Assembly: GCA_026545225.1 (NCBI GenBank)
Contig: CM048850.1
Location: 372,001-436,000 of the forward strand
DNA length: 64,000 bases
Direction: 5' to 3'
Source: Cornus controversa
Taxonomy: Eukaryota; Streptophyta; Magnoliopsida; Cornales; Cornaceae
Of the stretch, positions 1 to 64,000 are shown one piece after another; the first letter of the stretch is position 1, and every line of letters begins with the position of its first letter. The notes below the pieces were generated by a model. It had not been told where the DNA came from. It saw only the letters and a list, made by a program, of their open reading frames with translations, and did not search any database. The translations under genes and the position numbers were made by a program.

Positions 1-7
1 AGCTTTG

Positions 8-150
8 TTTGAGATGCTTTGATTTAAAAAGTCCCATTCCTAAAGAAATTGTGCCATAATTAAAACCGTACGTTGCTTTTTCCCGAATTCGACCGTCTGG
101 ACGTCAAAAGCAAGCAATGATCGTGCCAATCCGATCTTCATCCTATTTTG
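8..150 (+). repeat. Subunit A1 of the HOR (reference copy in U1)
   Basis: 143 bp type A subunit, measured from its leading TTTGAG. It carries the CATTCC..AGAAAT box, a CCGAATTCGACCGTCTGG box and a modified AAAAG box (GTCAAAAGCAAGCAATG). It ends with the A-type tail CCGATCTTCATCCT. In other units it is the most informative subunit, with three alleles after CTGG (ACGTC, ACATC, AAATC) and CCGAATTC or CCAAATTC. Bases 1-7 of the window are the tail of the preceding B5. Confidence 0.9.
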
Positions 151-291
151 TTTAAGTCGTTCTGATTCAGAAAGAGCAATTCTTTACAGAAATGGTGCGT
201 GATCACAACCGTATGGTGCTTTGTGCCAAAATCGACCATATGTACATCCGAAAGAAATGGGCATGGCAACCACAATTTTCAACTAGCTTCA
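151..291 (+). repeat. Subunit B1 of the HOR (reference copy in U1)
   Basis: 141 bp type B subunit starting TTTAAGTCGTTCTG. It includes the 8 bp palindrome GTGATCAC, a diverged TCGACCATATG version of the central box, CGAAAGAAATGGGCATGG, and the B-type tail (AATTTTCAACTAGCTTC). Across units the tail alternates between CAACCAC..ACTAGC and CAACAAC..ACTAAC, which is a useful lineage marker. Confidence 0.88.
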
Positions 292-434
292 TTTGAGTTG
301 TTTTGATTTTAAAAGTCGTATTCCAAGAGAAATCGTGCTATACTTAGAATCATGCATTGCTTTGTGCCGAATTCGACCGTTTAGAGGTCGAAAAGAAACA
401 ACGAGCTTGTCGATCCCAACTTGATCCTGTTCTG
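292..434 (+). repeat. Subunit A2 of the HOR (reference copy in U1)
   Basis: 143 bp type A subunit starting TTTGAGTTGTTTTGATTTT. It has the ATTCCAAGAGAAATCG box, TTCGACCGTTTAGAGG, GAAAAGAAACAACGAGC, and an A-type tail in the form CCCAACTTGATCCTGTTC. Later units read GATCTTGTTC here. It is absent from the two partial units U20b and U23b because their 504 bp deletion removes it. Confidence 0.88.
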
Positions 435-574
435 TTTGAGTCATTTTATTCAATACCAGCAATTCGTAGCGGAAATTGCGCATGATCACAACTGTGGGAT
501 GCTTTGTCACGAATTCGACCGTCTAGACATCCAAAAGAAAGGAGCAAGTCAACAACGATTTTAAACTTGCTTTG
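435..574 (+). repeat. Subunit B2 of the HOR (reference copy in U1)
   Basis: 140 bp type B subunit with the sequence TTTTATTCAATACC (TTAAATACC in most later units), GCATGATCACAACTGTGGGA, an EcoRI-type GAATTC at 511, CCAAAAGAAAGGAGC, and the B tail GATTTTAAACTTGC. The dimorphism GCTTTGTC or GCTCTGTC next to GAATTC alternates between neighbouring units in the right third of the window. Confidence 0.88.
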
Positions 575-705
575 TCTGAGTTGCTTCGACTCGAAAAGTC
601 CCATTCCAGGAGAAATTATGTCGTGTGTTGCTTTTTCCCGAATTCGACCGTCTGGAAGTCGGAAAGAAACAATGTGCACGTCAATCCGGTCTCCATCCAT
701 TTTTG
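575..705 (+). repeat. Subunit A3 of the HOR, 131 bp
   Basis: Type A subunit shorter than its siblings. Aligning GAGAAATTATGTCGTGTGTTGC with A1 shows about 12 bp missing just after the AGAAAT box. The CCGAATTCGACCGTCTGG and GGAAAGAAACAATGTGC boxes are intact, and the tail is CCGGTCTCCATCCA. The short form is present in every unit, so it predates HOR amplification. Confidence 0.87.
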
Positions 706-847
706 TTTGATTTGTTCTGATTCGAAAAGACCCATTCCAAGAAGAAACCTTGCACGATCATAAACTGTGCGGTGTTTTGTGCCAGATTCTACCGTCTTGA
801 CTTGCAGAAGAAATGAGCATCGCAACAACGATTTTAAACTAGTTTCG
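706..847 (+). repeat. Subunit B3 of the HOR (reference copy in U1)
   Basis: 142 bp type B subunit with GACCCATTCCAAGAAGAAAC, the GCACG..CGTGC inverted pair around ATCATAAAC (mutated to TGTGC in U1), GATTCTACCGTCTTG, GCAGAAGAAATGAGC, and the tail AACGATTTTAAACTAG. A GTTCTGATTCG or GTTCTTATTCG dimorphism marks unit lineages. Confidence 0.87.
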
Positions 848-990
848 TTTGAGTTTTTTTGATTCGAAAAGTCTCATTCCTTGAGAAATCTTGCCACAAT
901 CAGTTTCGTATGTTGCTTTTTGCGAAACTCGCTCGGTTTGATGTCCAAAAGAAACGACAAGCACGTTGATCAGATCTTCGTCCTACTTTT
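848..990 (+). repeat. Subunit A4 of the HOR (reference copy in U1)
   Basis: 143 bp type A subunit: CATTCCTTGAGAAATCTT box, then a diverged central box (GCGAAACTCGCTCGGTTTG), TCCAAAAGAAACGACAAGC, and the tail GATCAGATCTTCGTCCTAC. The A4-B4 boundary carries a run of seven T. The left side of the 435 bp deletion at 3659 falls within the A4 copy of U3. Confidence 0.87.
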
Positions 991-1134
991 TTTGAGTAGT
1001 TACGAATCGAAGTGAGCAACTCCGTGTAGAAATCGTGTATGATAATAACCTTGTGCTGCTTTGTGCCAACTTTGATTGTCTGGACGTTTAAAAGGAACAA
1101 TGAGCAAGCTGTCAACGATTTTAAACTAGTTTCG
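991..1134 (+). repeat. Subunit B4 of the HOR (reference copy in U1)
   Basis: 144 bp type B subunit, the longest of the ten. It has AACTCCGTGTAGAAATCG, the most diverged central box (AACTTTGATTGTCTGG), TTAAAAGGAACAATGAGC, and the tail CAACGATTTTAAACTAG. TTACGAATCG here becomes TTATGAATTG in many units from U18 on. Confidence 0.87.
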
Positions 1135-1277
1135 TTTGAGTTATTTTGATTCGAGAAGCCCCATTCCTGGAGAAATCGTGCCACAATCAGAATTGTACGT
1201 CGCTGGTTGCCAAATTAGACCGTCAAGACGTCCAAAAGAAACGACGAGCATGTCGATCCGATCTTCATCATGTTTTG
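1135..1277 (+). repeat. Subunit A5 of the HOR (reference copy in U1)
   Basis: 143 bp type A subunit: CCCCATTCCTGGAGAAATCG box, ATTAGACCGTCAAGACG, TCCAAAAGAAACGACGAGC, and the tail CGATCCGATCTTCATCATG. Two haplotypes recur along the array: CCTGG with CACAATCAG, and CCTAG with CACAGTCAG. Confidence 0.88.
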
Positions 1278-1354
1278 TTTGAGTCGTTACGAATCGAAAA
1301 GAACAATTCCTTGCAGAAATCAAGCATGACAACAACAATTTTAAACTAGCTTTG
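1278..1354 (+). repeat. Subunit B5 of the HOR, 77 bp internally deleted
   Basis: Only 77 bp separate this TTTGAG from the next. B5 keeps the B-type start (GTCGTTACGAATCGAAAAG), the ATTCCTTGCAGAAATC box and the B-type tail (CAACAACAATTTTAAACTAG). It lacks about 65 bp between them, including the central box and the AAAAGAAA box. Every complete unit has the same deletion, so it was fixed in the founder HOR. Five units carry a further 2 bp loss here (TTGCTTATC instead of TTGCAGAAATC). Confidence 0.88.
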
Positions 1355-2694
1355 TTTGAGATGCTTTGATTTAAAAAGTCCCATTCCAAGAGAAATTGTG
1401 CCATAATTAAAACCGTACGTTGCTTTTTCCCGAATTCGACCGTCTGGACGTCAAAAGCAAGCAATGATCGTGCCAATCCGATCTTCATCCTATTTTGTTT
1501 AAGTCGTTCTGATTCAGAAAGAGCAATTCTTTACAGAAATGGTGCGTGATCACAACCGTATGGTGCTTTGTGCCAAAATCGACCATATGTACATCCGAAA
1601 GAAATGGGCATGGCAACCACAATTTTCAACTAGCTTCATTTGAGTTGTTTTGATTTTAAAAGTCGAATTCCAAGAGAAATCGTGCTATACTCAGAATCAT
1701 GCATTGCTTTGTGCCAAATTCGACCGTTTAGAGGTCGAAAAGAAACAACGAGCTTGTCGATCCCAACTTGATCCTGTTCTGTTTGAGTCATTTTATTCAA
1801 TACCAGCAATTCGTAGCAGAAATTGTGCATGATCACAACTGTGGGATGCTTTGTCACGAATTCGACCGTCTAGACATCCAAAAGAAAGGAGCAAGTCAAC
1901 AACGATTTTAAACTTGCTTTGTCTGAGTTGCTTCGACTCGAAAAGTCCCATTCCAGGAGAAATTATGTCGTGTGTTGCTTTTTCCCGAATTCGACCGTCT
2001 TGAAGTCGGAAAGAAACAACGTGCACGTCAATCCGATCTCCATCCATTTTTGTTTGATTTGTTCTGATTCGAAAAGACCCATTCCAAGAAGAAACCTTGC
2101 ACGATCATAAACCGTGCGGTGTTTTGTGCCAGATTCTACCGTCTTGACTTGCAGAAGAAATGAGCATCGCAACAACGATTTTAAACTAGTTTCGTTTGAG
2201 TTGTTTTGATTCGAAAAGTCTCATTCCTTGAGAAATCTTGCCACAATCAGTTTCGTATGTTGCTTTTTGCGAAACTCGCTCGGTTTGATGTCCAAAAGAA
2301 ACGACAAGCACGTTGATCAGATCTTCGTCCTACTTTTTTTGAGTAGTTACGAATCGAAGTGAGCAACTCCGTGTAGAAATCGTGTATGATAATAACCTTG
2401 TGCTGCTTTGTGCCAACTTTGATTGTGTAGACGTTTAAAAGGAACAATGAGCAAGCTGTCAACGATTTTAAACTAGTTTCGTTTGAGTTATTTTGATTCG
2501 AGAAGCCCCATTCCTAGAGAAATCGTGCCACAATCAGAATTGTACGTCGCTGGTTGCCAAATTAGACCGTCAAGACGTCCAAAAGAAACGACGAGCATGT
2601 CGATCCGATCTTCATCATGTTTTGTTTGAGTCGTTACAAATCGAAAAGAACAATTCCTTGCAGAAATCAAGCATGACAACAACAGTTTTAAACG
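1348..2694 (+). repeat. HOR unit U2
   Basis: Complete. Differs from U1 by CCAAGAGAAATTG in A1, GTCGAATTCC in A2 (an extra GAATTC), GTAGCAGAAATTG in B2, GTCTTGAAGTCGG in A3 and TTGTGTAGACG in B4. Confidence 0.93.
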
Positions 2695-3659
2695 AGCTTT
2701 GTTTGAGATGCTTTCATTTAAAAAGTCCCATTCCAAGAGAAATTGTGCCATAATTAAAACCGTACGTTGCTTTTTCCCGAATTCGACCGTCTGGACGTCA
2801 AAAGCAAGCAATTATCGTGCCAATACGATCTTCATCCTATTTTGTTTAAGTCGTTCTGATTCAGAAAGAGCAATTCTTTACAGAAATGGTGCGTGATCAC
2901 AACCGTATGGTGCTTTGTGCCAAAATCGACCATATGTACATCCGAAAGAAATGGGCATGGCAACCACAATTTTCAACTAGCTTCATTTGAGTTGTTTTGA
3001 TTTTAAAAGTCGCATTCCAAGAGAAATCCTGCTATACTCAGAATCATTCATTGCTTTGTGCGAAATTCGACCGTTTAGAGGTCGAAAAGAAACAACGAGC
3101 ATGTCGATCCCAACTTGATCCTGTTCTGTTTGAGTCATTTTATTCAATACCAGCAATTCGTAGCGGAAATTATGCATGATCACAACTGTGGGACGCTTTG
3201 TCACGAATTCGACCCTCTAGACATCCAAAAGAAAGGAGCAAGTCAACAACGATTTTAAACTTGCTTTGTCTGAGTTGCTTCGACTCGAAAAGTCCCATTC
3301 CAGGAGAAATTATGTCGTGTGTTGCTTTTTCCCGAATTCGACCGTCTGGAAGTCGGAAAGAAACAATGTGCACGTCAATCCGGTCTCCATCCATTTTTGT
3401 TTGATTTGTTCTTATTCGAAAAGACCCATTCCAAGAAGAAACCTTGCACGATCATAAACCGTGCGGTGTTTTGTGCCAGATTCTACCGTCTTGACCTGCA
3501 GAAGAAATGAGCATCGCAACAACGATTTTAAACTAGTTTCGTTTGAGTTTTTTTTATTCGAAAAGTCTCATTCCTTGAGAAATCTTGCCACAATCAGTTT
3601 CGTATGTTGCTTTTTGCGAAACTCGCTCGGTTTGATGTCCAAAAGAAACGACAAGCACG
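2695..3659 (+). repeat. HOR unit U3, truncated at its right end
   Basis: Contains A1 to the middle of A4 and then stops at ACAAGCACG. The last 382 bp of the unit are missing. Shares GGGACGCTTTG in B2 with U8, U11 and U13. Has a private CAAGCAATTATCG in A1 and GAGTTTTTTTTATTCG in A4. Confidence 0.92.
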
Positions 3660-3662
3660 GTT
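3660..3662. other. Out-of-register deletion junction with 3 bp insertion
   Basis: U3 A4 sequence ending ACAAGCACG at 3659 is followed by GTT, which fits neither side. A1 sequence TAATTAAAACCG of the next unit resumes at 3663. Relative to the regular array, 438 bp are lost and 3 bp gained (net 435 bp). The two ends lie at different positions within the ~142 bp subunit, so this was not an in-register exchange. Confidence 0.85.
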
Positions 3663-4953
3663 TAATTAAAACCGTACGTTGCTTTTTCCCGAATTCGACC
3701 GTCTGGATATCAAAAGCAAGCAATGATCGTGCCAATCCGATCTTCATCCTATTTTGTTTAAGTCGTTCTGATTCAGAAAGAGCAATTCTTTACAGAAATG
3801 GTGCGTGATCACAACCGTATGGTGCTTTGTGCCAAAATCGACCATATGTACATCCGAAAGAAATGGGCATGGCAACCACAATTTTCAACTAGCTTCATTT
3901 GAGTTGTTTTGATTTTAAAAGTCGCATTCCAAGAGAAATCGTGCTATACTCAGAATCATGCATTGCTTTGTGCCAAATTCGACCGTTTAGAGGTCGAAAA
4001 GAAACAACGAGCTTGTCGATCCCAACTTGATCCTGTTCTGTTTGAGTCATTTTATTAAATACCAGCAATTCGTAGCGGAAATTGTGCATGATCACAACTG
4101 TGGGATGCTTTGTCACGAATTCGACCGTCTAGACATCCAAAAGAAAGGAGCAAGTCAACAACGATTTTAAACTTGCTTTGTCTGAGTTGCTTCGACTCGA
4201 AAAGTCACATTCCAAGAGAAATTATGTCGTGTGTTGCTTTTTCCTGAATTCGGTCGTCTGGAAGTCAGAAAGAAACAATGTGCACGTCAATCCGGTCTCC
4301 ATCCATTTTTGTTTGATTTGTTCTTATTCGAAAAGACCCATTCCAAGAAGAAACCTTGCACGATCATAAACCGTGCGGTGTTTTGTGCCAGATTCTACCG
4401 TCTTGACTTGCAGAAGAAATGAGCATCGCAACAACGATTTTAAACTAGTTTCGTTTGAGTTGTTTTGATTCGAAAAGTCTCATTCCTTGAGAAATCTTGC
4501 CACAATCAGTTTCGTATGTTGCTTTTTGCGAAACTCGCTCGGTTTGATGTCCAAAAGAAACGACAAGCACGTTGATCAGATCTTCGTCCTACTTTTTTTG
4601 AGTAGTTACGAATCGAAGTGAGCAACTCCGTGTAGAAATCGTGTATGATAATAACCTTGTGCTGCTTTGTGCCAACTTTGATTGTTTGGACGTTTAAAAG
4701 GAACAATGAGCAAGCTGTCAACGATTTTAAACTAGTTTCGTTTGAGTTATTTTGATTCGAGAAGCCCCATTCCTGGAGAAATCGTGCCACAATCAGAATT
4801 GTACGTCGCTGGTTGCCAAATTAGACCGTCAAGACGTCCAAAAGAAACGACGAGCATGTCGATCCGATCTTCATCATGTTTTGTTTGAGTCGTTACGAAT
4901 CGAAAAGAACAATTCCTTGCAGAAATCAAGCATGACAACAACAATTTTAAACT
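3663..4953 (+). repeat. HOR unit U4, lacking its first 56 bp
   Basis: Begins inside A1 after the junction. Rare variants: CTGGATATC in A1, AAGTCACATTCC with CCTGAATTCGGTCGTCTGG in A3 (shared only with U9), and TTGTTTGGACG in B4. Confidence 0.92.
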
Positions 4954-6300
4954 AGCTTTGTTTGAGATGCTTTGATTTAAAAAGTCCTATTCCTAGAGAA
5001 ATTGTGCCATAATTAAAACCGTACGTTGCTTTTTCCCGAATTCGACCGTCTGGACATCAAAAGCAAGCAATGATCGTGCCAATCCGATCTTCATCCTATT
5101 TTGTTTAAGTCGTTCTGATTCAGAAAGAGCAATTCTTTACAGAAATGGTGCGTGATCACAACCGTATGGTGCTTTGTGCCAAAATCGACCATATGTACAT
5201 CCGAAAGAAATGGGCATGGCAACCACAATTTTCAACTAGCTTCATTTGAGTTGTTTTGATTTTAAAAGTCGCATTCCAAGAGAAATCGTGCTATACTCAG
5301 AATCATGCATTGCTTTGTGCCAAATTCGACCGTTTAGAGGTCGAAAAGAAACAACGAGCTTGTCGATCCCAACTTGATCCTGTTCTGTTTGAGTCATTTT
5401 ATTAAATACCAGCAATTCGTAGCGGAAATTGTGCATGATCACAACTGTGGGATGCTTTGTCACGAATTCGACCCTCTAGACATCCAAAAGAAAGGAGCAA
5501 GTCAACAACGATTTTAAACTTTCTTTGTCTGAGTTGCTTCGACTCGAAAAGTCCCATTCCAGGAGAAATTATGTCGTGTGTTGCTTTTTCCCGAATTCGA
5601 CCGTCTGGAAGTCGGAAAGAAACAATGTGCACGTCAATCCGGTCTCCATCCATTTTTGTTTGATTTGTTCTGATTCGAAAAGACCCATTCCAAGAAGAAA
5701 CCTTGCACGATCATAAACCGTGCGGTGTTTTGTGCTAGATTCTACCGTCTTGACTTGCAGAAGAAATGAGCATCGCAACAACGATTTTAAACTAGTTTCG
5801 TTTGAGTTGTTTTGATTCGAAAAGTCTCATTCCTTGAGAAATCTTGCCACAATCAGTTTCGTATGTTGCTTTTTGCGAAACTCGCTCGGTTTGATGTCCA
5901 AAAGAAACGACAAGCACGTTGATCAGATCTTCGTCCTACTTTTTTTGAGTAGTTACGAATCGAAGTGAGCAACTCCGTGTAGAAATCGTGTATGATAATA
6001 ACCTTGTGCTGCTTTGTGCCAACTTTGATTGTCTGGACGTTTAAAAGGAACAATGAGCAAGCTGTCAACGATTTTAAACTAGTTTCGTTTGAGTTATTTT
6101 GATTCGAGAAGCCCCATTCCTGGAGAAATCGTGCCACAATCAGAATTGTACGTCGCTGGTTGCCAAATTAGACCGTCAAGACGTCCAAAAGAAACGACGA
6201 GCATGTCGATCCGATCTTCATCATGTTTTGTTTGAGTCGTTACGAATCGAAAAGAACAATTCCTTGCAGAAATCAAGCATGACAACAACAGTTTTAAACT
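4954..6300 (+). repeat. HOR unit U5
   Basis: Complete. AGTCCTATTCC in A1, CTGGACATC, AAACTTTCTTTGTC at the B2/A3 border (shared with U6), and a private GTGCTAGATTC in B3. Confidence 0.93.
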
Positions 6301-7647
6301 AGCTTTGTTTGAGATGCTTTCATTTAAAAAGTCCCATTCCTAGAGAAATTGTGCCATAATTAAAACCGTACGTTGCTTTTTCCCGAATTCGACCGTCTGG
6401 ACGTCAAAAGCAAGCAATGATCGTGCCAATACGATCTTCATCCTATTTTGTTTAAGTCGTTCTGATTCAGAAAGAGCAATTCTTTACAGAAATGGTGCGT
6501 GATCACAACCGTATGGTGCTTTGTGCCAAAATCGACCATATGTACATCCGAAAGAAATGGGCATGGCAACCACAATTTTCAACTAGCTTCATTTGAGTTG
6601 TTTTGATTTTAAAAGTCGCATTCCAAGAGAAATCGTGCTATACTCAGAATCATGCATTGCTTTGTGCCAAATTCGACCGTTTAGAGGTCGAAAAGAAACA
6701 ACGAGCTTGTCGATCCCAACTTGATCCTGTTCTGTTTGAGTCATTTTATTAAATACCAGCAATTCGTAGCGGAAATTGTGCATGATCACAACTGTGGGAT
6801 GCTTTGTCACGAATTCGACCCTCTAGACATCCAAAAGAAAGGAGCAAGTCAACAACGATTTTAAACTTTCTTTGTCTGAGTTGCTTCGACTCGAAAAGTC
6901 CCATTCCAGGAGAAATTATGTCGTGTGTTGCTTTTTCCCGAATTCGACCGTCTGGAAGTCGGAAAGAAACAATGTGCACGTCAATCCGGTCTCCATCCAT
7001 TTTTGTTTGATTTGTTCTGATTCGAAAAGACCCATTCCAAGAAGAAACCTTGCACGATCATAAACCGTGCGGTGTTTTGTGCCAGATTCTACCGTCTTGA
7101 CTTGCAGAAGAAATGAGCATCGCAACAACGATTTTAAACTAGTTTCGTTTGAGTTGTTTTGATTCGAAAAGTCTCATTCCTTGAGAAATCTTGCCACAAT
7201 CAGTTTCGTATGTTGCTTTTTGCGAAACTCGCTCGGTTTGATGTCCAAAAGAAACGACAAGCACGTTGATAAGATCTTCGTCCTACTTTTTTTGAGTAGT
7301 TATGAATCGAAGTGAGCAACTCCGTGTAGAAATCGTGTATGATAATAACCTTGTGCTGCTTTGTGCCAACTTTGATTGTCTCGACGTTTAAAAGGAACAA
7401 TGAGCAAGCTGTCAACGATTTTAAACTAGTTTCGTTTGAGTTATTTTGATTCGAGAAGCCCCATTCCTAGAGAAATCGTGCCACAGTCAGAATTGTACGT
7501 CGCTGGTTGCCAAATTAGACCGTCAAGACGTCCAAAAGAAACGACGAGCATGTCGATCCGATCTTCATCATGTTTTGTTTGAGTCGTTACGAATCGAAAA
7601 GAACAATTCCTTGCAGAAATCAAGCATGACAACAACAATTTTAAACT
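6301..7647 (+). repeat. HOR unit U6
   Basis: Complete. GCTTTCATTTA and CCAATACGATC in A1, AAACTTTCTTTGTC as in U5, private GATAAGATCTTCG in A4 and TTGTCTCGACG in B4. A5 has the CCTAG/CACAGTCAG haplotype. Confidence 0.93.
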
Positions 7648-8994
7648 AGCTTTGTTTGAGATGCTTTGATTTAAAAAGTCCCATTCCTAGAGAAATTGTG
7701 CCATAATTAAAACCGTACGTTGCTTTTTCCCGAATTCGACCGTCTGGACATCAAAAGCAAGCAATGATCGTGCCAATCCGATCTTCATCCTATTTTGTTT
7801 AAGTCGTTCTGATTCAGAAAGAGCAATTCTTTACAGAAATGGTGCGTGATCACAACCGTATGGTGCTTTGTGCCAAAATCGACCATATGTACATCCGAAA
7901 GAAATGTGCATGGCAACAACAATTTTCAACTAGCTTCATTTGAGTTGTTTTGATTTTAAAAGTCGCATTCCAAGAGAAATCGTGCTATACTCAGAATCAT
8001 TCATTGCTTTGTGTGAAATTCGACCGTTTAGAGGTCGAAAAGAAACAACGAGCTTGTCGATCCCAACTTGATCCTGTTCTGTTTGAGTCATTTTTTTAAA
8101 TACCAGCAATTAGTAGCGAAAATTGTGCATGATCACAACTGTGGGATGCTTTGTCACGAATTCGACCCTCTAGACATCCAAAAGAAAGGAGCAAGTCAAC
8201 AACGATTTTAAACTTGCTTTGTCTGAGTTGCTTCGACTCGAAAAGTCCCATTCCAGGAGAAATTATGTCGTGTGTTGCTTTTTCCCGAATTCGACCGTCT
8301 GGAAGTCGGAAAGAAACAATGTGCACGTCAATCCGGTCTCCATCCATTTTTGTTTGATTTGTTCTTATTCGAAAAGACCCATTCCAAGAAGAAACCTTGC
8401 ACGATCATAAACCGTGCGGTGTTTTGTGCCAGATTCTACCGTCTTGACTTGCAGAAGAAATGAGCATCGCAACAATGATTTTAAACTAGTTTCGTTTGAG
8501 TTGTTTTGATTCGAAAAGTCTCATTCCTTGAGAAATCTTGCCACAATCAGTTTCGTATGTTGCTTTTTGCGAAACTCGCTCGGTTTGATGTCCAAAAGAA
8601 ACGACAAGCACGTTGATCAGATCTTCGTCCTACTTTTTTTGAGTAGTTACGAATCGAAGTGAGCAACTCCGTGTAGAAATCGTGTATGATAATAACCTTG
8701 TGCTGCTTTGTGCCAACTTTGATTGTCTGGACGTTTAAAAGGAACAATGAGCAAGCTGTCAACGATTTTAAACTAGTTTCGTTTGAGTTATTTTGATTCG
8801 AGAAGCCCCATTCCTGGAGAAATCGTGCCACAATCAGAATTGTACGTCGCTGGTTGCCAAATTAGACCGTCAAGACGTCCAAAAGAAACGACGAGCATGT
8901 CGATCCGATCTTCATCATGTTTTGTTTGAGTCGTTACGAATCGAAAAGAACAATTCCTTGCAGAAATCAAGCATGACAACAACAGTTTTAAACT
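7648..8994 (+). repeat. HOR unit U7
   Basis: Complete. GAAATGTGCATGG in B1, GTGTGAAATTC in A2, TTTTTTTAAATACC and CAATTAGTAGCG in B2 (the latter shared with U10, 4,041 bp away), and AACAATGATTTT in the B3 tail. Confidence 0.93.
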
Positions 8995-10341
8995 AGCTTT
9001 GTTTGAGATGCTTTGATTTAAAAAGTCCCATTCCTAGAGAAATTGTGCCATAATTAAAACCGTACGTTGCTTTTTCCCGAATTCGACCGTCTGGACGTCA
9101 AAAGCAAGCAATGATCGTGCCAATACGATCTTCATCCTATTTTGTTTAAGTCGTTCTGATTCAGAAAGAGCAATTCTTTACAGAAATGGTGCGTGATCAC
9201 AACCGTATGGTGCTTTGTGCCAAAATCGACCATATGTACATCCGAAAGAAATGGGCATGGCAACCACAATTTTCAACTAGCTTCATTTGAGTTGTTTTGA
9301 TTTTAAAAGTCGCATTCCAAGAGAAATCGTGCTATACTCAGAATCATTCATTGCTTTGTGCGAAATTCGACCGTTTAGAGGTCGAAAAGAAACAACGAGC
9401 ATGTCGATCCCAACTTGATCCTGTTCTGTTTGAGTCATTTTATTCAATACCAGCAATTCGTAGCGGAAATTATGCATGATCACAACTGTGGGACGCTTTG
9501 TCACGAATTCGACCGTCTAGACATCCAAAAGAAAGGAGCAAGTCAACAACGATTTTAAACTTGCTTTGTCTGAGTTGCTTCGACTCGAAAAGTCCCATTC
9601 CAGGAGAAATTATGTCGTGTGTTGCTTTTTCCCGAATTCGACCGTCTGGAAGTCGGAAAGAAACAATGTGCACGTCAATCCGGTCTCCATCCATTTTTGT
9701 TTGATTTGTTCTGATTCGAAAAGACCCATTCCAAGAAGAAACCTTGCACGATCATAAACCGTGCGGTGTTTTGTGCCAGATTCTACCGTCTTGACTTGCA
9801 GAAGAAATGAGCATCGCAACAACGATTTTAAACTAGTTTCGTTTGAGTTGTTTTGATTCGAAAAGTCTCATTCCTTGAGAAATCTTGCCACAATCAGTTT
9901 CGTATGTTGCTTTTTGTGAAACTCGCTCGGTTTGATGTCCAAAAGAAACGACAAGCACGTTGATCAGATCTTCGTCCTACTTTTTTTGAGTAGTTACGAA
10001 TCGAAGTAAGCAACTCCGTGTAGAAATCGTGTATGATAATAACCTTGTGCTGCTTTGTGCCAACTTTGATTGTCTGGACGTTTAAAAGGAACAATGAGCA
10101 AGCTGTCAACGATTTTAAACTAGTTTCGTTTGAGTTATTTTGATTCGAGAAGCCCCATTCCTGGAGAAATCGTGCCACAATCAGAATTGTACGTCGCTGG
10201 TTGCCAAATTAGACCGTCAAGACGTCCAAAAGAAACGACGAGCATGTCGATCCGATCTTCATCATGTTTTGTTTGAGTCGTTACGAATCGAAAAGAACAA
10301 TTCCTTGCAGAAATCAAGCATGACAACAACAATTTTAAACT
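8995..10341 (+). repeat. HOR unit U8
   Basis: Complete. CCAATACGATC in A1, GGGACGCTTTG in B2, TTTTGTGAAACTCG in A4, and GAAGTAAGCAAC in B4, shared with U11 (4,041 bp away) and U13. Confidence 0.93.
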
Positions 10342-26433: not shown

Positions 26434-26445
26434 TTTGAGTCATTT
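26425..26445. other. In-register 504 bp deletion point, B5/B2 hybrid
   Basis: A5 tail CGATCTTCATCATG runs into TTCTGTTTGAGTCATTTT, which is the start of B2. The lost segment is B5, A1, B1 and A2 (77+143+141+143 = 504 bp). The exchange point lies in the shared TGTT..TGTTTGAG stretch. Confidence 0.88.
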
Positions 26446-31316: not shown

Positions 31317-31328
31317 TTTGAGTCATTT
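31308..31328. other. In-register 504 bp deletion point, duplicate
   Basis: Identical hybrid boundary 4,883 bp downstream of the first. It is a copy made by the 4,883 bp duplication, not an independent event. Confidence 0.88.
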
Positions 31329-52432: not shown

Positions 52433-53777
52433 AGCTTTGTTTGAGATGCTTTGATTTAAAAAGTCCCATTCCTAGAGAAATTGTGCCATAATTAAAACCG
52501 TACGTTGCTTTTTCCCAAATTCGACCGTCTGGAAATCAAAAGCAAGCAATGATCGTGCCAATCCGATCTTCATCCTATTTTGTTTAAGTCGTTCTGATTC
52601 AGAAAGAGCAATTCTTTACAGAAATGGTGCGTGATCACAACCGTATGGTGCTTTGTGCCAAAATCGACCATATGTACATCCGAAAGAAATGGGCATGGCA
52701 ACCACAATTTTCAACTAGCTTCATTTGAGTTGTTTTGATTTTAAAAGTCGCATTCCAAGAGAAATCGTGCTATACTCAGAATCATTCATTGCTTTGTGCG
52801 AAATTCGACCGTTTAGAGGTCGAAAAGAAACAACGAGCATGTCGATCCCAACTTGATCTTGTTCTGTTTGAGTCATTTTATTAAATACCAGCAATTCGTA
52901 GCGGAAATTGTGCATGATCACAACTGTGGGATGCTCTGTCACGAATTCGACCGTCTAGACATCCAAAAGAAAGGAGCAAGTCAACAACGATTTTAAACTT
53001 GCTTTGTCTGAGTTGCTTCGACTCGAAAAGTCCCATTCCAGGAGAAATTATGTCGTGTGTTGCTTTTTCCCGAATTCGACCGTCTGGAAGTCAGAAAGAA
53101 ACAATGTGCACGTCAATCCGGTCTCCATCCATTTTTGTTTGATTTGTTCTGATTCGAAAGGACCCATTCCAAGAAGAAACCTTGCACGATCATAAACCGT
53201 GCGGTGTTTTGTGCCAGATTCTACCGTCTTGACTTGCAGAAGAAATGAGCATCGCAACAACGATTTTAAACTAGTTTCGTTTGAGTTGTTTTGATTCGAA
53301 AAGTCTCATTCCCTGAGAAATCTTGCCACAATCAGTTTCGTATGTTGCTTTTTGCGAAACTCGCTCAGTTTGATGTCCAAAAGAAACGACAAGCACGTTG
53401 ATCAGATCTTCGTCCTACTTTTTTTGAGTAGTTACGAATCGAAGTGAGCAACTCCGTGTAGAAATCGTGTATGATAATAACCTTGTGCTGCTTTGTGCCA
53501 ACTTTGATTGTCTGGACGTTTAAAAGGAACAATGAGCAAGCTGTCAACGATTTTAAACTAGTTTCGTTTGAGTTATTTTGATTCGAGAAGCCCCATTCCT
53601 GGAGAAATCGTGCCACAATCAGAATTGTACGTCGCTGGTTGCCAAATTAGACCGTCAAGACGTCCAAAAGAAACGACGAGCATGTCGATCCGATCTTTAT
53701 CATGTTTTGTTTGAGTCTTTACGAATCGAAAAGAACAATTCCTTGCTTATCAAGCATGACAACAACAATTTTAAACT
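52433..53777 (+). repeat. HOR unit U39, 1,345 bp
   Basis: Its first ~100 bp have the CTGGAAATC allele. After 52,534 it becomes a copy of U29 (GAAAGGACCC, short B5). Private CTCGCTCAGTTTG in A4. Confidence 0.93.
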
Positions 53778-55124
53778 AGCTTTCTTTGAGATGCTTTGAT
53801 TTAAAAAGTCCCATTCCTAGAGAAATTGTGCCATAATTAAAACCGTACGTTGCTTTTTCCCGAATTCGACCGTCTGGACATCAAAAGCAAGCAATGATCG
53901 TGCCAATCCGATCTTCATCCTATTTTGTTTAAGTCGTTCTGATTCAGAAAGAGCAATTCTTTACAGAAATGGTGCGTGATCACAACCGTATGGTGCTTTG
54001 TGCCAAAATCGACCATATGTACATCCGAAAGAAATGGGCATGGCAACCACAATTTTCAACTAGCTTCATTTGAGTTGTTTTGATTTTAAAAGTCGCATTC
54101 CAAGAGAAATCGTGCTATACTCAGAATCATTCATTGCTTTGTGCGAAATTCGACCGTTTAGAGGTCGAAAAGAAACAACGAGCATGTCGATCCCAACTTG
54201 ATCTTGTTCTGTTTGAGTCATTTTATTAAATACCAGCAATTCGTAGCGGAAATTGTGCATGATCACAACTGTGGGATGCTCTGTCACGAATTCGACCGTC
54301 TAGACATCCAAAAGAAAGGAGCAAGTCAACAACGATTTTAAACTTGCTTTGTCTGAGTTGCTTCGACTCGAAAAGTCCCATTCCAGGAGAAATTATGTCG
54401 TGTGTTGCTTTTTCCCGAATTCGACCGTCTGGAAGTCGGAAAGAAACATTGTGCACGTCAATCCGGTCTCCATCCATTTTTGTTTGATTTGTTCTGATTC
54501 GAAAAGACCCATTCCAAGAAGAAACCTTGCACGATCATAAACCGTGCGGTGATTTGTGCCAGATTCTACCGTCTTGACTTGCAGAAGAAATGAGCATCGC
54601 AACAATGATTTTAAACTAGTTTCGTTTGAGTTGTTTTGATTCGAAAAGTCTCATTCCTTGAGAAATCTTGCCACAATCAGTTTCGTATGTTGCTTTTTGC
54701 GAAACTCGCTCGGTTTGATGTCCAAAAGAAACGACAAGCACGTTGATCAGATCTTCGTCCTACTTTTTTTGAGTAGTTACGAATCGAAGTGAGCAACTCC
54801 GTGTAGAAATCGTGTATGATAATAACCTTGTGCTGCTTTGTGCCAACTTTGATTGTCTGGACGTTTAAAAGGAACAATGAGCAAGCTGTCAATGATTTTA
54901 AACTAGTTTCGTTTGAGTTATTTTGATTTGAGAAGCCCCATTCCTAGAGAAATCGTGCCACAGTCAGAATTGTACGTCGCTGGTTGCCAAATTAGACCGT
55001 CAAGACGTCCAAAAGAAACGACGAGCATGTCGATCCGATCTTCATCATGTTTTGTTTGAGTCGTTACGAATCGAAAAGAACAATTCCTTGCAGAAATCAA
55101 GCATGACAACAACAATTTTAAACT
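53778..55124 (+). repeat. HOR unit U40
   Basis: Copy of U30. Private AGCTTTCTTTGAG at its start, GAAACATTGTGC in A3 and AACAATGATTTT in B3. Confidence 0.93.
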
Positions 55125-56471
55125 AGCTTTGTTTGAGATGCTTTGATTTAAAAAGTCCCATTCCTAGAGAAATTGTGCCATAATTAAAACCGTACGTTGC
55201 TTTTTCCCGAATTCGACCGTCTGGACGTCAAAAGCAAGCAATGATCGTGCCAATCCGATCTTCATCCTATTTTGTTTAAGTCGTTCTGATTCAGAAAGAG
55301 CAATTCTTTACAGAAATGGTGCGTGATCACAACCGTATGGTGCTTTGTGCCAAAATCGACCATATGTACATCCGAAAGAAATGGGCATGGCAACAACAAT
55401 TTTCAACTAACTTCATTTGAGTTGTTTTGATTTTAAAAGTCGCATTCCAAGAGAAATTGTGCTATACTCAGAATCATTCATTGCTTTGTGCGAAATTCGA
55501 CCGTTTAGAGGTCGAAAAGAAACAACGAGCATGTCGATCCCAACTTGATCTTGTTCTGTTTGAGTCATTTTATTAAATACCAGCAATTCGTAGCGGAAAT
55601 TGTGCATGATCACAACTGTGGGATGCTCTGTCACGAATTCGACCGTCTAGACATCCAAAAGAAAGGAGCAAGTCAACAACGATTTTAAACTTGCTTTGTC
55701 TGAGTTGCTTCGACTCGAAAAGTCCCATTCCAGGAGAAATTATGTCGTGTGTTGCTTTTCCCCGAATTCGACCGTCTGGAAGTCGGAAAGAAACAATGTG
55801 CACGTCAATCCGGTCTCCATCCATTTTTGTTTGATTTGTTCTTATTCGGAAAGACCCATTCCAAGAAGAAATCTTGCACGATCATAAACCGTGCGGTGTT
55901 TTGTGCCAGATTCTACCGTCTTGACTTGCAGAAGAAATGAGCATCGCAACAACGATTTTAAACTAGTTTCGTTTGAGTTGTTTTGATTCGAAAAGTCTCA
56001 TTCCCTGAGAAATCTTGCCACAATCAGTTTCGTATGTTGCTTTTTGCGAAACTCGCTCGGTTTGATGTCCAAAAGAAACGACAAGCACGTTGATCAGATC
56101 TTCGTCCTACTTTTTTTGAGTAGTTATGAATTGAAGTGAGCAACTCCGTGTAGAAATCGTGTATGATAATAACCTTGTGCTGCTTTATGCCAACTTTGAT
56201 TGTCTGGACGTTTAAAAGGAACAATGAGCAAGTTGTCAACGATTTTGAACTAGTTTCGTTTGAGTTATTTTGATTCGAGAAGCCCCATTCCTGGAGAAAT
56301 CGTGCCACAATCAGAATTGTACGTCGCTGGTTGCCAAATTAGACCGTCAAGGCGCCCAAAAGAAACGACGAGCATGTCGATCCGATCTTCATCATGTTTT
56401 GTTTGAGTCGTTACGAATCGAAAAGAACAATTCCTTGCAGAAATCAAGCATGACAACAATAATTTTAAACT
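55125..56471 (+). repeat. HOR unit U41
   Basis: Copy of U31, with one visible private change (GCTTTTCCCCGAATTC in A3, near 55,759). Confidence 0.93.
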
Positions 56472-57818
56472 AGCTTTGTTTGAGATGCTTTGATTTAAAA
56501 AGTCCCATTCCTAGAGAAATTGTGCCATAATTAAAACCGTACGTTGCTTTTTCCCAAATTCGACCGTCTGGAAATCAAAAGCAAGCAATGATCGTGCCAA
56601 TCCGATCTTCATCCTATTTTGTTTAAGTCGTTCTGATTCAGAAAGAGCAATTCTTTACAGAAATGGTGCGTGATCACAACCGTATGGTGCTTTGTGCCAA
56701 AATCGACCATATGTACATCCGAAAGAAATGGGCATGGCAACCACAATTTTCAACTAGCTTCATTTGAGTTGTTTTGATTTTAAAAGTCGCATTCCAAGAG
56801 AAATCGTGTTATACTCAGAATCATTCATTGCTTTGTGCGAAATTCGACCGTTTAGAGGTCGAAAAGAAACAACGAGCATGTCGATCCCAACTTGATCTTG
56901 TTCTGTTTGAGTCATTTTATTAAATACCAGCAATTCGTAGCGGAAATTGTGCATGATCACAACTGTGGGATGCTTTGTCACGAATTCGACCGTCTAGACA
57001 TCCAAAAGAAAGGAGCAAGTCAACAACGATTTTAAACTTGCTTTGTCTGAGTTGCTTCGACTCGAAAAGTCCCATTCCAGGAGAAATTATGTCGTGTGTT
57101 GCTTTTTCCCGAATTCGACCGTCTGGAAGTCGGAAAGAAACAATGTGCACGTCAATCCGGTCTCCATCCATTTTTGTTTGATTTGTTCTTATTCGAAAAG
57201 ACCCATTCCAAGAAGAAATCTTGCACGATCATAAACCGTGCGGTGTTTTGTGCCAGATTCTACAGTCTTGACTTGCAGAAGAAATGAGCATCGCAACAAC
57301 GATTTTAAACTAGTTTCGTTTGAGTTGTTTTGATTCTAAAAGTCTTATTCCTTGAGAAATCTTGCCACAATCAGTTTCGTATGTTGCTTTTTGCGAAACT
57401 CGCTCGGTTTGATGTCCAAAAGAAACGACAAGCACGTTGATCAGATCTTCGTCCTACTTTTTTTGAGTAGTTATGAATCGAAGTGAGCAACTCCGTGTAG
57501 AAATCGTGTATGATAATAACCTTGTGCTGCTTTATGCCAACTTTGATTGTCTGGACGTTTAAAAGGAACAATGAGCAAGCTGTCAACGATTTTAAACTAG
57601 TTTCGTTTGAGTTATTTTGATTCGAGAAGCCCCATTCCTGGAGAAATCGTGCCACAATCAGAATTGTACGTCGCTGGTTGCCAAATTAGACCGTCAAGAC
57701 GTCCAAAAGAAACGACGAGCATGTCGATCCGATCTTCATCATGTTTTGTTTGAGTCGTTACGAATCGAAAAGAACAATTCCTTGCAGAAATCAAGCATGA
57801 CAACAACAATTTTAAACT
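56472..57818 (+). repeat. HOR unit U42
   Basis: Copy of U32, including CGTGTTATACTC and GATTCTAAAAGTC. Confidence 0.93.
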
Positions 57819-59165
57819 AGCTTTGTTTGAGATGCTTTGATTTAAAAAGTCCCATTCCTAGAGAAATTGTGCCATAATTAAAACCGTACGTTGCTTTTTC
57901 CCGAATTCGACCGTCTGGACATCAAAAGCAAGCAATGATCGTGCCAATCCGATCTTCATCCTATTTTGTTTAAGTCGTTCTGATTCAGAAAGAGCAATTC
58001 TTTACAGAAATGGTGCGTGATCACAACCGTATGGTGCTTTGTGCCAAAATCGACCATATGTACATCCGAAAGAAATGGGCATGGCAACCACAATTTTCAA
58101 CTAGCTTCATTTGAGTTGTTTTGATTTTAAAAGTCGCATTCCAAGAGAAATCGTGCTATACTCAGAATCATTCATTGCTTTGTGCGAAATTCGACCGTTT
58201 AGAGGTCGAAAAGAAACAACGAGCATGTCGATCCCAACTTGATCTTGTTCTGTTTGAGTCATTTTATTAAATACCAGCAATTCGTAGCGGAAATTGTGCA
58301 TGATCACAACTGTGGGATGCTCTGTCACGAATTCGACCGTCTAGACATCCAAAAGAAAGGAGCAAGTCAACAACGATTTTAAACTTGCTTTGTCTGAGTT
58401 GCTTCGACTCGAAAAGTCCCATTCCAGGAGAAATTATGTCGTGTGTTGCTTTTTCCCGAATTCGACCGTCTGGAAGTCGGAAAGAAACAATGTGCACGTC
58501 AATCCGGTCTCCATCCATTTTTGTTTGATTTGTTCTTATTCGAAAAGACCCATTCCAAGAAGAAATCTTGCACGATCATAAACCGTGCGGTGTTTTGTGC
58601 CAGATTCTACCGTCTTGACTTGCAGAAGAAATGAGCATCGCAACAACGATTTTAAACTAGTTTCGTTTGAGTTGTTTTGATTCGAAAAGTCTCATTCCCT
58701 GAGAAATCTTGCCACAATCAGTTTCGTATGTTGCTTTTTGCGAAACTCGCTCGGTTTGATGTCCAAAAGAAACGACAAGCACGTTGATCAGATCTTCGTC
58801 CTACTTTTTTTGAGTAGTTATGAATTGAAGTGAGCAACTCCGTGTAGAAATCGTGTATGATAATAACCTTGTGCTGCTTTATGCCAACTTTGATTGTCTG
58901 GACGTTTAAAAGGAACAATGAGCAAGTTGTCAACGATTTTAAACTAGTTTCGTTTGAGTTATTTTGATTCGAGAAGCCCCATTCCTGGAGAAATCGTGCC
59001 ACAATCAGAATTGTACGTCGCTGGTTGCCAAATTAGACCGTCAAGACGTCCAAAAGAAACGACGAGCATGTCGATCCGATCTTCATCATGTTTTGTTTGA
59101 GTCGTTACGAATCGAAAAGAACAATTCCTTGCAGAAATCAAGCATGACAACAATAATTTTAAACT
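57819..59165 (+). repeat. HOR unit U43
   Basis: Copy of U33 at 13,468 bp distance. Confidence 0.93.
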
Positions 59166-60512
59166 AGCTTTGTTTGAGATGCTTTGATTTAAAAAGTCCC
59201 ATTCCTAGAGAAATTGTGCCATAATTAAAACCGTACGTTGCTTTTTCCCAAATTCGACCGTCTGGAAATCAAAAGCAAGCAATGATCGTGCCAATCCGAT
59301 CTTCATCCTATTTTGTTTAAGTCGTTCTGATTCAGAAAGAGCAATTCTTTACAGAAATGGTGCGTGATCACAACCGTATGGTGCTTTGTGCCAAAATCGA
59401 CCATATGTACATCCGAAAGAAATGGGCATGGCAACCACAATTTTCAACTAGCTTCATTTGAGTTGTTTTGATTTTAAAAGTCGCATTCCAAGAGAAATCG
59501 TGCTATACTCAGAATCATTCATTGCTTTGTGCGAAATTCGACCGTTTAGAGGTCGAAAAGAAACAACGAGCATGTCGATCCCAACTTGATCTTGTTCTGT
59601 TTGAGTCATTTTATTAAATACCCGCAATTCGTAGCGGAAATTGTGCATGATCACAACTGTGGGATGCTTTGTCACGAATTCGACCGTCTAGACATCCAAA
59701 AGAAAGGAGCAAGTCAACAACGATTTTAAACTTGCTTTGTCTGAGTTGCTTCGACTCGAAAAGTCCCATTCCAGGAGAAATTATGTCGTGTGTTGCTTTT
59801 TCCCGAATTCGACCGTCTGGAAGTCGGAAAGAAACAATGTGCACGTCAATCCGGTCTCCATCCATTTTTGTTTGATTTGTTCTGATTCGAAAAGACCCAT
59901 TCCAAGAAGAAACCTTGCACGATCATAAACCGTGCGGTGTTTTGTGCCAGATTCTACCGTCTTGACTTGCAGAAGAAATGAGCATCGCAACAACGATTTT
60001 AAACTAGTTTCGTTTGAGTTGTTTTGATTCGAAAAGTCTCATTTCTTGAGAAATCTTGCCACAATCAGTTTCGTATGTTGCTTTTTGCGAAACTCGCTCG
60101 GTTTGATGTCCAAAAGAAACGACAAGCACGTTGATCAGATCTTCGTCCTACTTTTTTTGAGTAGTTACGAATCAAAGTGAGCAACTCCGTGTAGAAATCG
60201 TGTATGATAATAACCTTGTGCTGCTTTGTGCCAACTTTGATTGTCTGGACGTTTAAAAGGAACAATGAGCAAGCTGTCAACGATTTTAAACTAGTTTCGT
60301 TTGAGTTATTTTGATTCGAGAAGCCCCATTCCTAGAGAAATCGTGCCACAGTCAGAATTGTACGTCGCTGGTTGCCAAATTAGACCGTCAAGACGTCCAA
60401 AAGAAACGACGAGCATGTCGATCCGATCTTCATCATGTTTTGTTTGAGTCGTTACGAATCGAAAAGAACAATTCCTTGCAGAAATCAAGCATGACAACAA
60501 TAATTTTAAACT
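59166..60512 (+). repeat. HOR unit U44, U34/U36 hybrid
   Basis: Left part matches U34 (GTAGCGGAAATTG at 59,636). Right part matches U36 (GTTCTGATTCG at 59,884, CTCATTTCTTGAG, GAATCAAAGTG). The switch lies between those two markers. Confidence 0.92.
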
Positions 60513-61859
60513 AGCTTTGTTTGAGATGCTTTGATTTAAAAAGTCCCATTCCTAGAGAAATTGTGCCATAATTAAAACCGTACGTTGCTTTTTCCCGAAT
60601 TCGACCGTCTGGACGTCAAAAGCAAGCAATGATCGTGCCAATCCGATCTTCATCCTATTTTGTTTAAGTCGTTCTGATTTAGAAAGAACAATTCTTTACA
60701 GAAATGGTGCGTGATCACAACCGTCTGGTGCTTTGTGCCAAAATCGACCATATGTACATCCGAAAGAAATGGGCATGGCAACAACAATTTTCAACTAACT
60801 TCATTTGAGTTGTTTTGATTTTAAAAGTCGCATTCCAAGAGAAATCGTGCTATACTCAGAATCATTCATTGCTTTGTGCGAAATTCGACCGTTTAGAGGT
60901 CGAAAAGAAACAACGAGCATGTCGATCCCAACTTGATCTTGTTCTGTTTGAGTCATTTTATTAAATACCAGCAATTCGTAGCGGAAATTGTGCATGATCA
61001 CAACTGTGGGATGCTCTGTCACGAATTCGACCGTCTAGACATCCAAAAGAAAGGAGCAAGTCAACAACGATTTTAAACTTGCTTTGTCTGAGTTGCTTCG
61101 ACTCGAAAAGTCCCATTCCAGGAGAAATTATGTCGTGTGTTGCTTTTTCCCGAATTCGACCGTCTGGAAGTCGGAAAGAAACAATGTGCACGTCAATCCG
61201 GTCTCCATCCATTTTTGTTTGATTTGTTCTTATTCGAAAAGACCCATTCCAAGAAGAAATCTTGCACGATCATAAACCGTGCGGTGTTTTGTGCCAGATT
61301 CTACCGTCTTGACTTGCAGAAGAAATGAGCATCGCAACAACGATTTTAAACTAGTTTCGTTTGAGTTGTTTTGATTCGAAAAGTCTCATTCCCTGAGAAA
61401 TCTTGCCACAATCAGTTTCGTATGTTGCTTTTTGCGAAACTCGCTCGGTTTGATGTCCAAAAGAAACGACAAGCACGTTGATCAGATCTTCGTCCTACTT
61501 TTTTTGAGTAGTTATGAATTGAAGTGAGCAACTCCGTGTAGAAATCGTGTATGATAATAACCTTGTGCTGCTTTATGCCAACTTTGATTGTCTGGACGTT
61601 TAAAAGGAACAATGAGCAAGTTGTCAACGATTTTAAACTAGTTTCGTTTGAGTTATTTTGATTCGAGAAGCCCCATTCCTGGAGAAATCGTGCCACAATC
61701 AGAATTGTACGTCGCTGGTTGCCAAATTAGACCGTCAAGACGTCCAAAAGAAACGACGAGCATGTCGATCCGATCTTCATCATGTTTTGTTTGAGTCGTT
61801 ACGAATCGAAAAGAACAATTCCTTGCAGAAATCAAGCATGACAACAATAATTTTAAACT
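60513..61859 (+). repeat. HOR unit U45
   Basis: Copy of U37 at 10,774 bp distance (GATTTAGAAAGAACAATT, CCGTCTGGTGC). Confidence 0.93.
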
Positions 61860-63206
61860 AGCTTTGTTTGAGATGCTTTGATTTAAAAAGTCCCATTCCT
61901 AGAGAAATTGTGCCATAATTAAAACCGTACGTTGCTTTTTCCCAAATTCGACCGTCTGGAAATCAAAAGCAAGCAATGATCGTGCCAATCCGATCTTCAT
62001 CCTATTTTGTTTAAGTCGTTCTGATTCAGAAAGAGCAATTCTTTACAGAAATGGTGCGTGATCACAACCGTATGGTGCTTTGTGCCAAAATCGACCATAT
62101 GTACATCCGAAAGAAATGGGCATGGCAACCACAATTTTCAACTAGCTTCATTTGAGTTGTTTTGATTTTAAAAGTCGCATTCCAAGAGAAATCGTGCTAT
62201 ACTCAGAATCATTCATTGCTTTGTGCGAAATTCGACCGTTTAGAGGTCGAAAAGAAACAACGAGCATGTCGATCCCAACTTGATCTTGTTCTGTTTGAGT
62301 CATTTTATTAAATACCAGCAATTCGTAGCGGAAATTGTGCATGATCACAACTGTGGGATGCTTTGTCACGAATTCGACCGTCTAGACATCCAAAAGAAAG
62401 GAGCAAGTCAACAACGATTTTAAACTTGCTTTGTCTGAGTTGCTTCGACTCGAAAAGTCCCATTCCAGGAGAAATTATGTCGTGTGTTGCTTTTTCCCGA
62501 ATTCGACCGTCTGGAAGTCGGAAAGAAACAATGTGCACGTCAATCCGGTCTCCATCCATTTTTGTTTGATTTGTTCTGATTCGAAAAGACCCATTCCAAG
62601 AAGAAACCTTGCACGATCATAAACCGTGCGGTGTTTTGTGCCAGATTCTACCGTCTTGACTTGCAGAAGAAATGAGCATCGCAACAACGATTTTAAACTA
62701 GTTTCGTTTGAGTTGTTTTGATTCGAAAAGTCTCATTCCTTGAGAAATCTTGCCACAATCAGTTTCGTATGTTGCTTTTTGCGAAACTCGCTCGGTTTGA
62801 TGTCCAAAAGAAACGACAAGCACGTTGATCAGATCTTCGTCCTACTTTTTTTGAGTAGTTACGAATCAAAGTGAGCAACTCCGTGTAGAAATCGTGTATG
62901 ATAATAACCTTGTGCTGCTTTGTGCCAACTTTGATTGTCTGGACGTTTAAAAGGAACAATGAGCAAGCTGTCAACGATTTTAAACTAGTTTCGTTTGAGT
63001 TATTTTGATTCGAGAAGCCCCATTCCTAGAGAAATCGTTCCACAGTCAGAATTGTACGTCGCTGGTTGCCAAATTAGACCGTCAAGACGTCCAAAAGAAA
63101 CGACGAGCATGTCGATCCGATCTTCATCATGTTTTGTTTGAGTCGTTACGAATCGAAAAGAACAATTCCTTGCAGAAATCAAGCATGACAACAATAATTT
63201 TAAACT
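61860..63206 (+). repeat. HOR unit U46
   Basis: Copy of U38 at 10,774 bp distance, including ATCGTTCCACAGTC. Confidence 0.93.
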
Positions 63207-64000
63207 AGCTTTGTTTGAGATGCTTTGATTTAAAAAGTCCCATTCCTAGAGAAATTGTGCCATAATTAAAACCGTACGTTGCTTTTTCCCGAATTCGACC
63301 GTCTAGACGTCAAAAGCAAGCAATGATCGTGCCAATCCGATCTTCATCCTATTTTGTTTAAGTCGTTCTGATTTAGAAAGAACAATTCTTTACAGAAATG
63401 GTGCGTGATCACAACCGTATGGTGCTTTGTGCCAAAATCGACCATATGTACATCCGAAAGAAATGGGCATGGCAACAACAATTTTCAACTAACTTCATTT
63501 GAGTTGTTTTGATTTTAAAAGTCGCATTCCAAGAGAAATCGTGCTATACTCAGAATCATTCATTGCTTTGTGCGAAATTCGACCGTTTAGAGGTCGAAAA
63601 GAAACAACGAGCATGTCGATCCCAACTTGATCTTGTTCTGTTTGAGTCATTTTATTAAATACCAGCAATTCGTAGCGGAAATTGTGCATGATCACAACTG
63701 TGGGATGCTCTGTCACGAATTCGACCGTCTAGACATCCAAAAGAAAGGAGCAAGTCAACAACGATTTTAAACTTGCTTTGTCTGAGTTGCTTCGACTCGA
63801 AAAGTCCCATTCCAGGAGAAATTATGTCGTGTGTTGCTTTTTCCCGAATTCGACCGTCTGGAAGTCGGAAAGAAACAATGTGCACGTCAATCCGGTCTCC
63901 ATCCATTTTTGTTTGATTTGTTCTTATTCGAAAAGACCCATTCCAAGAAGAAATCTTGCACGATCATAAACCGTGCGGTGTTTTGTGCCAGATTCTACCG
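63207..64000 (+). repeat. HOR unit U47, cut by the window end
   Basis: First 794 bp (A1 to mid B3). Resembles U45/U37 in B1 (GATTTAGAAAGAACAATT) but has CCGTATGGTGC, and a private CCGTCTAGACGTC in A1. The array continues past the window. Confidence 0.93.

Follow-up and report, generated by a model that had tools for sequence, protein, structure and literature searches.

The question raised by this locus is how a stretch of DNA that consists of one repeat from end to end is organised, how it has grown and what it may do. When the window (the whole stretch that was analysed, 64,000 bp) was compared with itself at lags of 20 to 15,999, the top autocorrelation lag was 1,347, at 85.7% identity. 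A BLAST search with the unit at 1348-2694 as query gave 221 rows, 47 of which (>90% identity) were kept, while the other 174 (90% or less) were dropped and taken as cross-matches between different sub-units. The retained rows represent 42 complete units and five partial or rearranged pieces. The complete units are 97.5-100% identical to the query unit, the 100% being the query itself, and have lengths of 1,347 bp (38 units), 1,345 bp (three) and 1,348 bp (one). Matches at least 90% identical to the consensus of the 42 units cover 63,997 of the 64,000 bases; on the minus strand of the 64-kb window no match to that consensus was obtained at E 1e-5. Moreover, exact matches to a 22-base junction motif number 131, whereas 100 shuffles gave an expectation of 0.00. 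The regular order of the array is broken at three rearranged places, two of them being identical copies of each other. The window is satellite DNA with higher-order repeats (HORs), in which one monomer family is arrayed head to tail. Its features are collected in Table 1.

Table 1. Features of the satellite array, in coordinates of the window.
Feature	Coordinates	Strand	Length (bp)	Basis or remark
Satellite array, head to tail, single orientation	1-64000	+		Unit-consensus matches
Reference HOR unit, ten sub-units (A1 B2 A3 B4 A5 B6 A7 B8 A9 B10)	1348-2694	+	1,347	BLAST, cuts, alignment
Sub-unit 1, type A	1348-1490	+	143	Consensus cut
Sub-unit 2, type B	1491-1631	+	141	Consensus cut
Sub-unit 3, type A	1632-1774	+	143	Consensus cut
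Sub-unit 4, type B	1775-1914	+	140	Consensus cut
Sub-unit 5, type A with short internal deletion	1915-2045	+	131	Cut and alignment
Sub-unit 6, type B	2046-2187	+	142	Consensus cut
Sub-unit 7, type A	2188-2330	+	143	Consensus cut
Sub-unit 8, type B	2331-2474	+	144	Consensus cut
Sub-unit 9, type A	2475-2617	+	143	Consensus cut
Sub-unit 10, type B with large internal deletion (middle lost)	2618-2694	+	77	Cut and alignment
Rearranged double unit	2695-4953	+	2,259	Out-of-phase joint of sub-units 7 and 1
Compound unit	25157-27345	+	2,189	Overlapping BLAST matches in two registers
Copy of the compound unit	30040-32228	+	2,189	0 differences in 2,189 bp; 4,883 bp downstream
22 complete units, variants tending to alternate; imperfect fourth tier of 2,694 bp	33576-63206	+		Unit distances; the unit at 32229 lies outside and is uncounted
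Source of the recent block duplication	39050-52533	+		Blocks at lag 13,468, then lag 10,774, joined
Copy of the duplicated block, shorter than its source by one unit pair	about 52518-63418	+		Same joined lags, 13,468/10,774

Whole units differ from one another by 1.35% on average and by 2.52% at most, 36 of the 42 being distinct, and are far more alike than the monomers inside them (1.35% versus sub-unit differences of 20-47%). The three 1,345-bp units, at 18424, 38965 and 52433, have one 2-bp deletion in common; as 20 kb separate the first of them from the next, this variant has spread along the array by being copied or moved. Within the window neither an open reading frame of at least 120 amino acids, nor a tRNA, nor an Rfam family at gathering threshold was detected, and the 1,347-bp unit is free of inverted repeats of at least 12 bp. 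As to structure and mode of growth, we hold with high confidence that this is a non-coding satellite array that has grown by repeated rounds of amplification. The G+C content of the array is about 40%. The composition of the repeat is strand-asymmetric over positions 1-64000, GG being strongly depleted (observed/expected 0.35) and CC not (0.89), and TA is low across the same positions (0.38).

Common centromeric satellites likewise have monomers close to the nucleosome core in length and form long, uniform arrays, and a putative centromeric function has, in our estimate, an even chance; in that case each monomer would carry about one nucleosome and the array would act as a centromeric or pericentromeric platform. 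The WW periodicity near 10 bp (2.62) exceeds the 95th percentile of mononucleotide shuffles (2.23) by a little, a margin on which no claim is based. A CENP-B box, which would not be expected in plants, did not stand out: the best match to the core had 7 of 9 bases (at least 7 in 90 of 100 shuffles) and the best match to the full box 12 of 17 (at least 12 in 84 of 200 shuffles). The same kind of array, differing in role only, could also form a subtelomeric or interstitial block of heterochromatin that has no part in the kinetochore. The resemblance in monomer length and uniformity to centromeric satellites argues against such a block without being decisive; the window holds no centromere mark, and the non-centromeric Palv148 arrays of poplar form HORs without CENH3 peaks (PMC12046899), so that a non-centromeric block is a real possibility, somewhat short of probable. 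The array could also serve as a probe to map centromeres or heterochromatin in the source species.

The order of the units along the array revealed a further level of organisation. With the 42 units taken in order, the mean distance between units at every even lag from 2 to 28 (14 of 14) is below that at both adjacent odd lags, and the contrast was reached in 0 of 5,000 shuffles of the order. The alternation is visible by eye in a table of 32 informative columns. It is found in the right half of the array (22 units; 1 of 5,000 shuffles as high) and within the 14 units at 33-52 kb (0 of 5,000), whereas none was detected among the 20 units of the left half, for which 1,061 of 5,000 permutations gave a contrast as high. 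A local test on 34 neighbouring triples of units had 21 for and 13 against alternation (sign p 0.11), a count of 21 being reached in 27 of 2,000 order shuffles with a mean of 14.2; four consecutive triples at 34923-38965 run against alternation, the lag-1 neighbours being closer there. A tier of 2,694-bp pairs is present in the right half, where it is local and imperfect, and was not detected in the left; with it the right half contains a superHOR, a larger repeat whose units are HORs. With this alternation the tiers continue past the three that were described in the sequence-only reading, and the anatomy is slightly richer than given there.

Larger blocks have also been copied. A scan for exact runs of at least 2,200 bp at lags of 1,000-49,999 gave five runs, at lags 13,468, 4,883, 10,774 (twice) and 2,694, and each of the five lags amounts to a whole number of units after correction for the 2-bp deletion that three units share and for the 2,189-bp compound unit. 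Among the near-identical blocks are one of 5,581 bp (lag 13,468; 5 differences), one of 7,060 bp (lag 10,774; 8 differences) and one of 5,888 bp (lag 4,883; 8 differences); the lags tried for these blocks were mostly multiples of the unit, so their register is partly a matter of choice, and the exact-run scan alone is free of this bias. A stretch of about 11-13 kb has recently been copied. The lags 13,468 and 10,774 differ by 2,694, which means that either the source or the copy later gained or lost one unit pair. Long exact runs, such as those of 4,123, 3,774 and 3,654 bp, are where assemblers err, and both the pair alternation and the block copies might in principle be products of collapsed or duplicated reads. 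We consider this unlikely, because the 14 units that precede the block copy already alternate significantly and because the copied blocks carry the scattered substitutions just given.

The two compound units are identical and constitute a very recent duplication. Within the compound unit the repeat passes from sub-units 9/10 to sub-units 3/4. The crossover lies at about 26382-26441 and was placed no more narrowly when the bases were compared one by one; the switch is in phase and the A-B alternation is thereby kept. The double unit, in turn, has three unmatched bases at 3660-3662, at the joint of sub-unit 7 to sub-unit 1, and this joint points to what end joining would leave. Thus one of the two distinct rearrangements is out of phase, a point against the course of growth given below, and the other is in phase, a point in its favour. 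The joint (3655-3670) is the sole one of end-joining type among the rearranged units found.

The tiers inside the unit are older and less uniform. The sequence-only reading had proposed a three-tier satellite, with a monomer of about 142 bp, an A-B heterodimer and a ten-sub-unit HOR, and had divided the unit at spacings of 143, 141, 143, 140, 131, 142, 143, 144, 143 and 77 bp, which sum to 1,347. These lengths were imposed here as cuts. No leading gaps arise when the ten pieces are aligned, which shows that the imposed cuts are in phase, and the positions of the sub-unit tails agree with them. More specifically, the tail of the odd sub-units, CCGATCTTCATCCT, was found (at most 4 mismatches) at unit positions 131, 415, 686, 971 and 1258, and the tail of the even ones, ATTTTAAACTAG, was found (at most 3 mismatches) at 275, 558, 831 and 1118, with the fifth crossing the unit boundary. 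The spacings of the tails equal sums of the sub-unit lengths, a check that is independent of the cuts. The TTTGAG-like start that had been noted for the sub-units is loosely conserved, with sub-units 2, 5 and 6 off by one base. Lag 143 is the best of all lags below 1,340 in the window and ties for best within the unit with its circular complement, 1,204. The monomer of primate alpha satellite is 171 bp long; the sub-units here measure 140-144 bp, and the shortened ones 131 and 77 bp.

The split of odd versus even sub-units is the best of the 126 possible splits into five and five, with a branch support of 100/99 for the ten sub-units, and the two clades on which the proposed heterodimer depended were thus obtained. 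A tree of 380 sub-units, taken from 38 of the 42 units (the four units not exactly 1,347 bp long were left out), supports the same split at 0.998, and all ten positions form single splits in it, with supports of 0.86-1.0. Among the seven inner branches, A versus B alone is strongly supported, and the order in which the dimers originated is without strong support. Tail spacings, tree and score tests together bear out the three tiers. On a joint alignment the mean identity is 75% among A, 72% among B and 60% between A and B. The free-gap identity of 16 A-B pairs (mean 72.0%) did not discriminate them from shuffles (mean 68.1%, largest 78.6%), and this control was replaced by a test on alignment scores, covering nine of the 25 possible A-B pairs with 300 shuffles each. 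All nine pairs gave z values of 6.8-11.6 and no shuffle scored as high. On the strength of these comparisons we regard A and B as copies of a single monomer that have diverged. That the basic repeat should be a dimer of about 284 bp with unrelated halves agrees with the A-B identity of merely 60% and with free-gap identities inseparable from shuffles, but is very improbable in view of the scores of all nine pairs and of the rank of lag 143 in both window and unit.

The dimers seem to have spread as units. When the distances among A sub-units were compared with those among their partner B sub-units, the correlation was 0.571 in the A-B phase (rank 5 of 120 orderings) and -0.244 in the B-A phase (rank 95 of 120). 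The distances of A thus mirror those of the partner B in the A-B phase, which is suggestive, not strong, evidence for A-B dimers that may have moved together, as the test rests on five dimers.

The variation between units carries a possible trace of methylation. With the rarer base at a variable site taken as derived, transitions at C/G affect 16 of 69 sites in the CHG context and 26 of 142 in the CG context, against 23 of 331 in the CHH context (Fisher p 0.00018 and 0.00031); transitions at A/T affect 20 of 805 sites. With rare variants only, the counts were 12 of 69, 17 of 142 and 18 of 331, respectively (p 0.0018 and 0.013). An excess of transitions at CHG besides CG points to plant-type methylation, and we regard the enrichment as a moderate hint of such a footprint, with a plant as the probable host. 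Against it stand the many transversions that CAG sites also have (5 of 24), the single CTG site among the rare transitions (1 of 24), and a CpG content that is not depleted (observed/expected 1.29).

The following course of growth best accounts for these observations. A monomer of about 143 bp was duplicated, and the copies diverged into A and B. The A-B dimer next seems to have spread as a unit, and five such dimers, by then diverged and with the B of the fifth shortened, were captured as a single HOR of 1,347 bp. Copying and homogenisation of this unit followed, both by pairs and by longer stretches. The inner tiers are 60-75% identical and the units 1.35% apart, so a young outer tier lies upon old inner tiers. 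Judging by the duplication footprint, out-of-register homologous exchange or break-induced replication between near-identical units is the likely engine. The footprint itself fits in-register exchange and break-induced replication alike, which are the two models set out in the literature on human satellites (PMC8997354). The value of the array lies in the fact that one 64-kb stretch keeps a record of stepwise growth, from old 143-bp monomers through dimer, ten-sub-unit unit and unit pairs to a recent block copy, and that it is useful for testing models of unequal exchange versus break-induced replication. A bolder proposal would be that the complete design of the human dimer-based HORs has arisen independently in a plant satellite. 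A and B would then serve different roles (e.g. binding different proteins, or setting the nucleosome phase at every second monomer), the alternation would be kept through unequal exchange, and nesting would go up to the 2,694-bp HOR pair and runs of 8-10 units; we think this quite improbable.

Relatives of the family were sought by sequence and in print. In distant mode the 1,347-bp unit had no match among plasmids, phages and E. coli genomes, a 22-base pattern none in viral contigs, and a 26-base pattern none in genome contigs of bacteria and archaea; as the collections searched were microbial and viral rather than of plants or animals, these blanks say little about relatives. A text search of the literature with short motifs of the unit gave one match, by its listing a gastric cancer study and apparently unrelated. 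No satellite of 142, 143, 284 or 1,347 bp appeared in the text searched, whose scope leaves aside supplements and most subscription papers, and the matches listed for 'superHOR' together with 'plant' were both unrelated by title. On the basis of these searches by motif and satellite length, we know of no printed record of the sequence family.

The architecture, in contrast to the sequence, can be compared with several known systems. It had been suggested that HORs built from alternating dimers are less often documented outside primates. This is overstated, considering that a survey of tandem repeats across plants and animals reported clear HORs in 76 of the 171 species for which it had Sanger data, yet it is not plainly wrong, since the short reads seldom allowed HORs of three or more monomers to be identified there (PMC4053949). 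The centromeric HORs of switchgrass, of 1,131 bp and 792 bp, resemble the present unit in that a kilobase HOR combines full monomers with a truncated one (six of type B1 plus 53 bp), but the monomer is 175 bp versus about 143 bp here and an A-B alternation is not reported in the consulted part of the survey (PMC4053949). The AB dimer of the sorghum centromere does have alternating A and B monomers that cluster separately, whereas the HOR there is the dimer only (PMC4053949). The poplar satellites Palv156 and Palv148 are also plant satellites of similar monomer length arranged in HORs, but their monomers are 156 and 148 bp, and they were set apart by their descriptions rather than by their sequences (PMC12046899). 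VaccSat1 of Vaccinium, which has monomers of 138-148 bp and higher-order subunits, was set aside, likewise by description and not by sequence, as its G+C content is 18.4% versus about 40% here (PMC7290377).

Human alpha satellite is a further parallel. The longer HORs of its families SF1 and SF2 are based on A/B dimers, and its monomers are 50-70% identical while the HOR copies are nearly identical; unlike the present array, in which no CENP-B box rises above shuffle level, it has such boxes in every other monomer (PMC8997354). The superHORs of human centromeres likewise consist of HORs organised into a larger repeat, but they are described for alpha satellite, whereas here variants of one unit alternate locally (PMC8336445). 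General knowledge of satellites is unchanged by the array. A non-primate HOR of several A-B dimers, or a report of all tiers together outside primates, was not found in those parts of the literature that were compared, which does not make it unreported. Every tier taken by itself has a described counterpart somewhere in the sources compared, and many plants and animals are known to have nested satellite arrays of this broad type.
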